Part shown: positions 4,205 through 19,659 of the stretch, in pieces
Layout: every line of letters begins with the position of its first letter
How positions within the stretch are numbered: the stretch's first letter is position 1
DNA from: a virus
DNA length: 20,185 bases
IMG/VR virus record: IMGVR_UViG_3300037504_000096
Span: 1-20,185 of that record
Direction: 5' to 3' (one strand)
Position numbers and translations under genes: made by a program
Notes under the pieces: model-generated
Databases searched by the model: none
What the model was told of the DNA's origin: nothing
The model's input: only the letters and a program-made list of their open reading frames with translations

Positions 4205-4540
4205 ATGAACGATAAAATTAGAATGATACAGAACTATAGGCCGGTATACGATTCGCCTATTATGAAAAAAGGGTCAGTGTATCGTGTATCAGACGTTGAA
4301 AAAATCTTAAAGAGATTAGAAAAACACGGCGACAAAAAGAGTGTTGAGGATTTGGTAAATCCAAGAGGCGGAAAAAAGCCCGTTGCTGTCTATGTTAAAG
4401 CTAAAGGCGCTACAGGCTTGCCGGAGACTACTCGTAAGGTACAACAGCAGTCAGATGAAGCAGCTAAGGCTGTTGAGGAAGTAGAGCAAGCGGGTAGAAC
4501 GCCACAACGCAGAACACGGCGTACAAGTAAGAAGATGTAG
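4205..4540 (+). CDS. Hypothetical protein with basic tail (111 aa)
   Basis: ATG 4205 follows ACAGGAGGTAA and the gene ends 3 bases before the next ATG, so it is a real operon member. The first ~55 residues are a mixed alpha/beta unit (VYRVSDVEKILKRLEKHG). The middle carries KKPVAVYVKAKGATG, and the last 20 residues are Arg/Lys/Thr-rich (GRTPQRRTRRTSKKM), likely disordered and nucleic-acid or capsid binding. No family is recognised. Position directly after the major capsid gene and before the DUF1320-like connector suggests a head-completion or minor head role, by inference. Confidence 0.65.
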   Translation: MNDKIRMIQNYRPVYDSPIMKKGSVYRVSDVEKILKRLEKHGDKKSVEDLVNPRGGKKPVAVYVKAKGATGLPETTRKVQQQSDEAAKAVEEVEQAGRTPQRRTRRTSKKM

Positions 4541-4543
4541 CCA

Positions 4544-5029
4544 ATGGGATATTATATCACTACCACTACTATTTACGACGACAAGCTAAGCCGGATTAAT
4601 ACCAGCACAGTAACACCGTCTATATTGGCAGCCTATATCACGGACGCGGAGAACGTCATCAATTCGTATATAGCCAAACAGTATAACATAGCAAGCGTTA
4701 CGGTCTCACGGCCCCCTACGCTTCGCACAATCGCAAAGGATTTGACTATCTACTACACACTATTAGACGCGTACACGCAGGACAATCAAAACTTTAACGA
4801 TTGGATTCAGCGTAGAGGTGAACGGGCGTTTGAGCTGCTTAACGCTATCAGGGATGACGATATCAGATTGTTCACGGATTCGGGGGTGGCTATATCGCCT
4901 ATATCCCCGGAAGTTGGTATCAATATGAAGTCGAGTACTAAAGGCTATGAGCTTACTATTAATATGGATACCTATACAAGTTGGGCAGTACCAGACGACT
5001 TGTTAACTGAGATTGCGGCCGACCGGTGA
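4544..5029 (+). CDS. Head-tail connector, DUF1320 / Mu gp36-like
   Basis: A 161-residue protein with the all-helical core of DUF1320-type connectors: an N-terminal YDDKLSRIN segment, then ILAAYITDAENVINSYIAKQY (a helix that packs in the connector ring), then RTIAKDLTIYYTLLDAY and a late RAFELLNAIRDDDIRL helix. In such phages this protein forms the adaptor ring between portal and tail. The start has only a weak ribosome site, so coupling to the gene three bases upstream is likely; its own stop overlaps the next GTG by 4 bases (GTGA). Family call is from helix pattern and order. Confidence 0.7.
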   Translation: MGYYITTTTIYDDKLSRINTSTVTPSILAAYITDAENVINSYIAKQYNIASVTVSRPPTLRTIAKDLTIYYTLLDAYTQDNQNFNDWIQRRGERAFELLNAIRDDDIRLFTDSGVAISPISPEVGINMKSSTKGYELTINMDTYTSWAVPDDLLTEIAADR

Positions 5030-8729: not shown

Positions 8730-8956
8730 CGGGGTCTAAGCGTAGCGGGAATTGGCAAGAGGAATCGGACATTCCGATTTACCTAGAGATACTAGATATA
8801 TTTGCGTATGAGTACGGGTGGGATATTGAAACGGTAGAAAACATGACGCTGCCGCAGTTAAATATGTACCTGTTACTCATACAAAACCGCAAATATAGAG
8901 AGTTAGAGGCCATGCAAAAGCAACGCATAGATAACCAGCTACACCGAAGGAAATAA
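8091..8956 (+). CDS. Tail assembly chaperone, -1 frameshift product (gpGT-like)
   Basis: After the A-run at 8715-8723, the -1 frame is open to the TAA at 8954-8956 and adds 77 residues, giving about 288 in total. The -1 frame is closed by TAA at 8714-8716, so it opens only at the slippery run and has no well-placed start of its own. The extension contains IPIYLEILDIFAYEYGW and MTLPQLNMYLLLIQNRKY, then a basic helical tail, in keeping with gpT-type C-terminal domains that contact the tape measure protein. It ends one base before the tape measure ATG. In known phages the long form is a minor product that loads tube subunits on the tape measure. Frameshift use is inferred from sequence. Confidence 0.8.
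8715..8724 (+). promoter_or_regulatory. -1 ribosomal frameshift slippery site (AAAAAAAAAG)
   Basis: Nine A followed by G; the zero-frame codons are AAA AAA AAA GTT TAG, so an A AAA AAA heptamer is present at 8717-8723 and the zero-frame stop follows two codons later. tRNA-Lys can re-pair after a one-base backward slip. A perfect 7-bp hairpin (AATCGGA / TCCGATT, 8763-8779) lies about 40 bases downstream, farther than typical stimulators. Confidence 0.8.
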
Positions 8957-8957
8957 A

Positions 8958-15586: not shown

Positions 15587-15720
15587 CGACACTATACGTA
15601 TCTAAAAAAGACTGCCCTATGCGGATAGTGTATCGTGAGGAACGACAGACAAGGGAATACAAGCTAATGAGCAATAAGGAAGGTAGCAAGATATTTCTTA
15701 ACCGATGGGAGGGCTTTTAG
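15574..15720 (+). CDS. Small hypothetical protein ending at an in-frame amber codon (48 aa)
   Basis: ATG 15574 overlaps the end of the fibre gene by 13 bases and the frame runs to TAG at 15718-15720. The 48-residue product is basic and polar (KKDCPMRIVYREERQTREYK) and ends NRWEGF. No clear ribosome site precedes it, so coupling to the fibre gene would be needed. The same frame continues open after the TAG into the next membrane protein, which makes readthrough or a nonsense mutation possible. No family recognised. Confidence 0.5.
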   Translation: MASITTLYVSKKDCPMRIVYREERQTREYKLMSNKEGSKIFLNRWEGF

Positions 15721-15789
15721 ATACCTAAATGGCATGAACTACCCTGCGAGAAAGTAGAATGCGGAAGCCGTCAAGACAAGTGCGAAGTC

Positions 15790-17126: not shown

Positions 17127-18098
17127 TTAAAACAAGCTTATTTGTTTGTTTTTTTCTATATAACAACCAGGTTCACAGCTTGTCAGGTTTTTTACAGCTT
17201 GTTTATAATAGCTATCTTTTAATTCTACCCCTATCCCTTTACGATTCAAAGCCACTGCACCGTAAACCTCGCTGCCAACCCCCATAAACGGAGTGAATAT
17301 ATTTTCGCCTTCGTTGCTTCTAAGGGTTATTGCACGGTCAATAACATCTAGCTGTAGCGGATGGACATGTTTCTCGTCGTCCTCATCTTTTCCTTCCTCA
17401 AAAGGCATTACTCTGGAAGCCCTCACATCATCCCATATACAGCTAGCATATTGCCGCCAGATCCAATGACTATATTTATTTTCTATTTGGTTTCCTTCCC
17501 AGTTTTTATACCTCAAGTTTTCAGCTGGCATTTGTAACGATCCAGCATAATGGTCTAATCCTGTAGGGTGGGCAATCGGAATCTTGTTTTCTCCTGGCTT
17601 CCTAAACATTAATAAAAAATCACCACTCGCTACGCTTGCATAGGCGGCATCATCTACTATTGTTTTGTGTGCTAATCCTTTAGCCATTGTCCTGTTACGC
17701 ACTTGTAGAGGTTCTTTCCATATCAAATAACGGGCAACAAGTCGCCACCCTATATCTTCATGTAACCTTATAATCCCGCCTGGCAAGTCCATTAAGTAAT
17801 CAGCATGGCCACCTGTATTCCCCATAGGGATATCAGAACAATGCACAGCTGATATGCGTCCAGGCTTTGTTATTCTATATAATTCTTTAATAACAAAGCT
17901 GTAATGTTTATAAAACTGGTCTACATTAAAATTGTTTGAAAGGTCTCTTTCGTCGCTTGAATAATTATAGAGACCACCAAACGGCGGGGAATATATGCTC
18001 ATGTGCATGCTTTTATCTGGCATATCTGCCATAGCCTCTATGCAGTCTCCGTTATATATTGCGTAGTTATCTGTTATTTTTTTGTCTTTTATAGCCAT
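17127..18098 (-). CDS. Beta-class DNA methyltransferase (N4-cytosine or N6-adenine)
   Basis: A 323-residue enzyme that should transfer a methyl group from S-adenosylmethionine to an exocyclic amine in DNA. Catalytic motif SPPF is at 37-40, preceded by the usual YNGDCIEAMADMPDKS lead-in. The AdoMet-binding motif lies near the C-terminus (FTPFMGVGS at 268-276, then GIGVEL at 288-293), after HPLQLDVIDRAI. Motif IV before motif I defines the beta class. SPP(Y/F) favours N4-cytosine, but N6-adenine cannot be excluded. Its ATG overlaps the helicase 3' end by 10 bases, so the two are coupled. The stop abuts the opposite-strand lysis gene with no gap. It could protect phage DNA from host restriction. 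Confidence 0.88.
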   Translation of the reverse strand: MAIKDKKITDNYAIYNGDCIEAMADMPDKSMHMSIYSPPFGGLYNYSSDERDLSNNFNVDQFYKHYSFVIKELYRITKPGRISAVHCSDIPMGNTGGHADYLMDLPGGIIRLHEDIGWRLVARYLIWKEPLQVRNRTMAKGLAHKTIVDDAAYASVASGDFLLMFRKPGENKIPIAHPTGLDHYAGSLQMPAENLRYKNWEGNQIENKYSHWIWRQYASCIWDDVRASRVMPFEEGKDEDDEKHVHPLQLDVIDRAITLRSNEGENIFTPFMGVGSEVYGAVALNRKGIGVELKDSYYKQAVKNLTSCEPGCYIEKNKQISLF

Positions 18099-19453: not shown

Positions 19454-19464
19454 ATTGCCATCTC

Positions 19465-19507
19465 CTTTGCCGCTTATGGGGGTAGGTGCGGCAAAGCTAC
19501 CTACCCC
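19465..19507 (-). promoter_or_regulatory. Predicted H-type pseudoknot leader over the helicase ribosome site
   Basis: On the minus strand, arm GGGGTAGGT pairs with ACCTACCCC (19507-19499 with 19487-19479), and CTTTGCCGC pairs with GCGGCAAAG (19496-19488 with 19473-19465). Both are perfect 9-bp matches and they interleave (1-2-1'-2'), with linkers AG, none, and CATAA. The last four bases of the second stem begin the AAAGGAG ribosome site of the helicase. The fold may be a pseudoknot or two competing hairpins; either would allow control of translation by a protein or ligand. No known riboswitch class is recognised. Confidence 0.7.
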
Positions 19508-19518
19508 GATTAAGTTAT

Positions 19519-19548
19519 ATTATACTAATAAGTTACGCAGGCGGTCAA
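19519..19548 (-). promoter_or_regulatory. Sigma70-type promoter for helicase-methyltransferase
   Basis: On the minus strand, TTGACC (19548-19543), an 18-base spacer, and a perfect TATAAT (19524-19519). The start of transcription would fall near 19512-19510, just before the first stem of the leader fold, leaving a leader of about 58 bases. The promoter overlaps the last codons of the upstream 44-residue gene, so the helicase pair can be expressed separately from the upstream genes. Confidence 0.75.
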
Positions 19549-19659
19549 TACCCCTGCTGCAATCCAGTACGTCATCCTTCGCCAGTCGCCATAAAAGGCG
19601 TAAACAATAGCCGCTCCGATATCTAATATTATCAGGATAGACGGGAATAGCTTAGTCAT
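19525..19659 (-). CDS. Small membrane protein (44 aa)
   Basis: ATG (19659-19657) follows directly on the TAA of the Lar-like gene, with no spacer, so coupled translation is likely. The 44-residue product has two short membrane spans, SILIILDIGAAIVYAFYG (~7-24) and YWIAAGVLTACVTY (31-44), joined by a charged DWRRMT turn. Such hairpin-like mini membrane proteins are common in phages and often unassigned. The end of its coding region carries the -35 element of the helicase promoter. Function unknown. Confidence 0.75.
   Translation of the reverse strand: MTKLFPSILIILDIGAAIVYAFYGDWRRMTYWIAAGVLTACVTY

Follow-up and report, generated by a model that had tools for sequence, protein, structure and literature searches.

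The leader of a helicase-methyltransferase operon in IMG/VR virus record IMGVR_UViG_3300037504_000096 is probably a genuine and so far undescribed RNA control element, not a repeat that arose by chance. Our favoured reading, to which we give a probability of roughly 0.6, is that this cis-acting, pseudoknotted leader restrains the operon, with its second stem (S2) as the expression platform. The case is built from the sequence and its repeats, from the recurrence of such repeats ahead of related helicases and, in relatives, from compensatory changes and terminator tails; the fold is also sterically feasible. "The window" denotes here the whole stretch of 20,185 nucleotides analysed.

On the minus strand of the window, two perfect 9-bp inverted repeats alternate in the order 1-2-1′-2′ and cover 36 of 43 bases. 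The leader runs TATAAT-ATAACTTAATC-GGGGTAGGT-AG-CTTTGCCGC-ACCTACCCC-CATAA-GCGGCAAAG-GAGATGGCAAT-ATG, the repeat proper extending from GGGGTAGGT to GCGGCAAAG. An earlier note had described these repeats and the overlap of arm 2′ with AAAGGAG, and all of this was confirmed at the positions listed in Table 1. Arm 2′ shares its final four bases with the beginning of the Shine-Dalgarno (SD) sequence AAAGGAG, whose GAG is left free. Elsewhere in the window, other longer coding-strand stretches in which no ORF of at least 60 aa was called lie at 784-928, 8730-8957 and 15587-15789.

Table 1. Features of the helicase-methyltransferase operon and its leader (positions in the window).
Feature	Position	Strand	Remark
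N6/N4 DNA methyltransferase, 323 aa, overlaps helicase end	17127..18098	-	PF01555; phrog_67, phrog_16
SF2 (SNF2/DEAD-like) helicase, 454 aa	18089..19453	-	Pfam Helicase_C/DEAD; phrog_62, phrog_16
Shine-Dalgarno AAAGGAG	19462..19468	-	8 nt before helicase ATG (19453)
Arm 2′ of S2, GCGGCAAAG	19465..19473	-	last four bases are SD bases
Loop L3 (CATAA)	19474..19478	-	would span shallow groove of S1
Arm 1′ of S1, ACCTACCCC	19479..19487	-	sequence
Arm 2 of S2, CTTTGCCGC	19488..19496	-	sequence
Loop L1 (AG)	19497..19498	-	would span deep groove of S2
Arm 1 of S1, GGGGTAGGT	19499..19507	-	sequence
Promoter-like TTGACC-18-TATAAT	19519..19548	-	11/12 match
44-codon ORF (MTKLFPSILIILDIGAAIVYAFYGDWRRMTYWIAAGVLTACVTY, then stop), membrane-protein-like, contains -35 hexamer	19525..19659	-	

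In the promoter-like sequence ahead of the leader, an 18-bp spacer separates a -35 hexamer TTGACC (19548-19543) from a -10 hexamer TATAAT (19524-19519, both on the minus strand). The hexamers are present as the earlier note gave them, but they do not carry independent certainty: matches of at least 11/12 occur three times in the window versus 0.73 expected, and the -35 hexamer lies inside a conserved ORF of 44 codons. We therefore regard the promoter as plausible and only supportive, as weaker evidence than the repeats. The 3′ end of the ORF is 80% identical over 45 nt in locus L242, where TTAACC occupies the place aligned with TTGACC of the window. As in L242, comparable ORF ends directly precede the helicase in L001 and L067, and the ORF itself is missing from a list made with a 60-aa ORF filter.

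An interleaved pair with 18 bp or more in a span of 45 nt arose in only one of 2032 dinucleotide-Markov shuffles of the window, and two 9-bp arms in none of the 2032, which bears out the claim that the arrangement is unlikely by chance. Because AT-rich genomes are rich in bare interleaved repeats (24 in Flavobacterium phage hattifnatt vs 13.7 in its shuffles), the bare repeat score carries weight only in GC-balanced, compact cases, of which the window is one; as sole evidence, the bare count was rejected for AT-rich genomes. Taken separately, the two stems of the window have energies of -15.8 (S1) and -14.5 kcal/mol (S2), the corresponding duplex energies being -16.4 and -14.4 kcal/mol. The nested minimum-energy fold of the leader is the S1 hairpin, and nested folding predicts an accessible SD. 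The near-equal energies of the isolated stems, the S1 hairpin as nested minimum and the very short L1 and L3 would also suit a bistable switch without a pseudoknot, in which two mutually exclusive hairpins alternate, pairing 1:1′ freeing the SD and pairing 2:2′ covering it. We consider this alternative unlikely. A-form distances permit both stems together: by a geometric estimate, made from A-form helix parameters at 6 Å per step and not from a folding calculation, L1 (2 nt) has 16.3 Å to span over the deep groove of the 9-bp S2 and a reach of about 18 Å, while L3 (5 nt) has 33.6 Å to span over the shallow groove of the 9-bp S1 and a reach of about 36 Å. On this model the full 9+9 H-type pseudoknot would be just possible sterically, and easy with one pair frayed. 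In addition, S2 would contribute about -14 kcal/mol before the pseudoknot penalty, and the steric limits vanish in relatives with longer loops. The 5-base linker is tight, as the earlier note held, but it is long enough, so that the mutually exclusive hairpins set against the pseudoknot in that note need not be preferred.

To place the element among its relatives, viral contigs, phage records and genomes were searched for loci of related helicases, and an HMM fixed each helicase start, which gave 382 non-redundant leaders. The element is absent from most of them, and among the nearest relatives by protein sequence a leader is often lacking altogether (in S-H1 the helicase directly follows another gene). 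Direct searches with the leader DNA in IMG/VR, phages and plasmids returned no match, searches with the capsid and the methyltransferase found no close relative of the window phage (the best helicases are only about 65% identical), and the one match among 395 Bacteroidota genomes had no leader. Interleaved stems nevertheless recur before related helicases, like those first noticed over the ribosome site of the window: where the noncoding gap measured 70 nt or more, stems of 18 bp or more were present close to the start in 7 of 161 helicase leaders and in none of 355 leaders of other genes of the same loci (Fisher 3e-4; 6/160 vs 0/355 and 8e-4 without the window), and stems of at least 17 bp in 12/161 vs 3/355 (Fisher 1e-4), these probabilities being approximate because the leaders overlap partly by descent. 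Since AT-rich genomes weaken the bare score, a second test was applied to terminator-type leaders, which have a U-rich tail after stem 2, and the complementarity of the loop to the upstream RNA was compared with that to shuffled upstream sequence. It reached p<=0.05 in 10 of 22 terminator-type helicase leaders, whereas the proportion among 832 further terminator-like hairpins in these loci was 4.2% (Fisher 2e-8).

Locus L008 is the closest case to the window element. Its helicase is 57% identical, and promoter, interleaved repeat and SD follow one another in the window's order (TTGACA-17-TAGTAT, arm 1 GGCGTAGG, arm 2 AAACTGCCTAGC, arm 1′ CCTACGCC, arm 2′ GCTAGGCAGTTT, AGGAG, ATG). A GTAGG core is common to the window, L008, L379 (GTAGGAACC/GGTTCCTAC) and L526 (GTAGGAG/CTCCTAC), the only leaders in which GTAGG is followed by CCTAC. 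Arm sequences otherwise vary among members, arms and loops have almost no sequence in common, and no conserved unpaired core fit for a small ligand was seen across them. As the earlier note had supposed, the leader belongs to no recognised RNA class: Rfam gave no match in the window at the gathering threshold and none in the leader even at E<=10, riboswitches included, and in fourteen related loci it gave only one sub-threshold chance match, on the other strand of L235. This last locus has, in a divergent intergenic region (4409-4779) that is not a helicase leader, compact interleaved repeats of its own (GATTTGTCA atatt TATAACGG ggataa TGACAAATC ... CCGTTATA).

These data bear on a metabolite riboswitch, responding for example to SAM or SAH. 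The preQ1 and SAM-II riboswitches are likewise short H-type pseudoknots lying over the SD, which their 3′ strand reaches, and a methyltransferase is encoded downstream in the operon. However, ligand pockets need conserved bases, whereas the members lack a conserved aptamer core and share almost no arm or loop sequence, the GTAGG core being confined to four leaders. With neither a shared unpaired core nor an Rfam class, a small-ligand switch is so improbable that we give it hardly any weight.

Several other loci were considered and set aside. L380 was at first taken for the closest match in structure. However, the hairpin formed by its S1 comes after the stop codon of the gene upstream and could be the terminator of that gene; the hairpin also holds a promoter (TTGCGC-17-TATATT), and the locus was not relied upon. 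The repeats of L115, L088, L098, L297 and L346 are probably within coding sequence. In the helicase leader of L129 (1860-2000, plus strand) there is a perfect inverted pair, TTATTATCCACAA/TTGTGGATAATAA, each arm with a DnaA-box-like word (TTATCCACA); it is probably a replication feature, perhaps an origin, and was not accepted as a member.

A second group of leaders was termed Bacteroidetes-type on the basis of Flavobacterium phage isolates, the MAG titles of some loci and TAnnTTTG promoters, and includes L268, L030 (Flavobacterium phage hattifnatt), L244, L259, L248, L163, L224 and others. In this group a promoter-like TAnnTTTG or TTGACA/-10 precedes arm 1 by a few to about 20 bases, and arm 2′ leads into a run of 5-7 T immediately ahead of the helicase start. 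Stem 2 thus has the sequence of a putative intrinsic terminator, with arm 1′ in its loop. The U-run after the 3′ arm is present in L268, L244, L224 and L259 and absent in the window, where arm 2′ is followed by GAGATGG; in the window's leader and in that of L008, it is the SD that the 3′ arm reaches. The overlap with the SD agrees with the translational switch proposed in the earlier note. However, with stem 2 as an intrinsic terminator in one group, the architecture itself would not be tied to translation; cis-regulatory RNAs show changes of output at constant topology. In L526 (950-1033), L512 (1100-1196) and L514 (1100-1200, all plus strand), the sequence places arm 1 in the loop of a hairpin and arm 1′ in that of the terminator, so that the two would meet as kissing loops; the pair GTGGAAG/CTTCCAC occurs in both L512 and L514, with its strands exchanged between them. 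In the hattifnatt record (MN812207.1; L536, 9441-9480) the annotated helicase start, 9441, falls inside the terminator hairpin of the leader and may be mis-annotated, the start conserved in relatives being 9477.

The span from promoter to terminator in these relatives could also suggest a stand-alone small RNA gene, for instance an antisense regulator, that lies before the helicase by chance. We find this very improbable: the window has no terminator and its repeat merges with the SD, and in the relatives 8-25 nt separate the end of the terminator from the helicase start, which makes the helicase dependent on read-through.

Compensatory changes in the arms, whose absence from relatives would have counted against the element in the earlier note, were found in three pairs of loci. 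In L268/L030, aligned through the flanks of S1 (AGTT-CG ... TCGAG ... CCGATG), 8 pairs are present in all sequences, of which three have both bases replaced and none has lost its pairing; when the partner is shifted by 1-3 columns, at most one compensatory pair remains. L150/L151, whose helicases are 90% identical, have two compensatory pairs in S1 and two in S2 (S2 anchored on structure), and in L253/L256 (structure-anchored) the numbers are two for S1 and three for S2. For the window itself, the compensatory support consists of a single G-C to C-G exchange in S1 relative to L008, there being no close relative with which to compare S2. MAFFT did not align the arms of the window and L008 leaders; these two, as well as S2 of L268/L030 and of L253/L256, were anchored by hand on structure. 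The shuffles of the pair counter were only moderately exceeded (27/500 and 55/500) because few sequences are involved, and the strength of the covariation is the agreement of independent pairs.

The same changes have to be weighed against the possibility that the dyads are DNA operators for a dimeric repressor over the promoter-proximal region, the RNA fold being a by-product. Inverted repeats beside a promoter are typical of operators, and a symmetric change in both half-sites would look compensatory too. On the other hand, the dyads start beyond the -10 hexamer and extend onto the SD, the two are interleaved and are not copies of one operator, and U-runs follow stem 2 in relatives. Furthermore, in the sequence-aligned pair L248/L250, S2 differs at two positions, both U-A/U-G exchanges; such one-sided, G-U compatible changes favour an RNA over a DNA dyad. 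We consider the operator explanation very unlikely.

Returning to the pseudoknotted leader, we infer its fold in the cell, its repressing sign and its trigger as follows. S1 (9 bp) would form first, during transcription, and arm 2′ would then pair with the S1 loop to give S2. This second stem would sequester the AAAG of AAAGGAG, and together the coaxially stacked stems, up to 18 bp long, would sit on the ribosome site. Since S2 would cover part of the SD and the stack would lie within the ribosome footprint, translation would be low by default, and the operon would be switched on when a ribosome, a protein or a folding delay opens the knot. In the Bacteroidetes-type relatives the same topology would act on transcription, S2 being the presumed intrinsic terminator. 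As no unpaired ligand core is conserved across members, the helicase itself or a translating ribosome is the most likely trigger. Autogenous control by the helicase is an attractive possibility, because the element follows the helicase family and keeps its shape more than its sequence.

A pseudoknot in a helicase leader was not found described in the open-access literature searched. In function, the element would resemble the leaders of gene 32 and rpsO. According to a 2010 review, the gene 32 pseudoknot of T4, T2 and RB69 is perhaps the only viral example in translational autoregulation (PMC3014915). Like gene 32, the window has an H-type pseudoknot, here a predicted one, in the 5′ leader of a phage gene that serves DNA replication or repair and encodes a nucleic-acid-binding protein. 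However, in gene 32 the knot is 67 nt upstream of the start codon, where it seeds the cooperative binding of gp32 along a ribosome site that is A+U-rich and unstructured, whereas the window knot overlaps the SD itself and is followed by GAGATGGCAAT and ATG. As an unstructured A+U-rich tract with UUAA(A) repeats for cooperative binding is absent between knot and start, the element is not of the gene 32 type. The E. coli rpsO leader, for ribosomal protein S15, also has a pseudoknot within its ribosome binding site (PMC3858243), but gene product, structural details and ligand differ, the gene downstream in the window encoding an SF2 helicase and not S15. Several unrelated RNA structures serve S15 in different phyla (PMC5100602), a precedent for the sequence freedom seen among the helicase leaders. 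Finally, the Bacteroidetes-type relatives (L268, L030, L244, L259, L163 and others) resemble transcription attenuators in placing the terminator stem 2 directly before the helicase. Unlike in attenuators, the terminator loop would pair with the 5′ end of the transcript, as a pseudoknot or a kissing loop, and no leader peptide was seen in these relatives.

A broader proposal, which we put forward tentatively and hold to be unlikely, is that these leaders form a widespread family of fast-drifting pseudoknots and kissing loops in the helicase-methyltransferase operons of diverse phages. Their topology would be kept while the sequence is free, the platform would be interchangeable between SD occlusion and a terminator, and the sensor would be the encoded helicase, which would recognise and unwind the shape. 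Covariance searches based on sequence would overlook a family of this kind, a possible reason why Rfam does not contain it. Two isolates, the Flavobacterium phages hattifnatt and snusmum, carry the element, which makes it testable in the laboratory. Established examples of phage mRNA pseudoknots with control over expression are few. If the proposed reading is true, the helicase leaders would be a second case, a recurrent one within a single helicase family, in which the topology persists while the sequence drifts and the output moves between translation and termination; they would offer a natural series on the evolution of RNA switches and on how a helicase may sense its own message.
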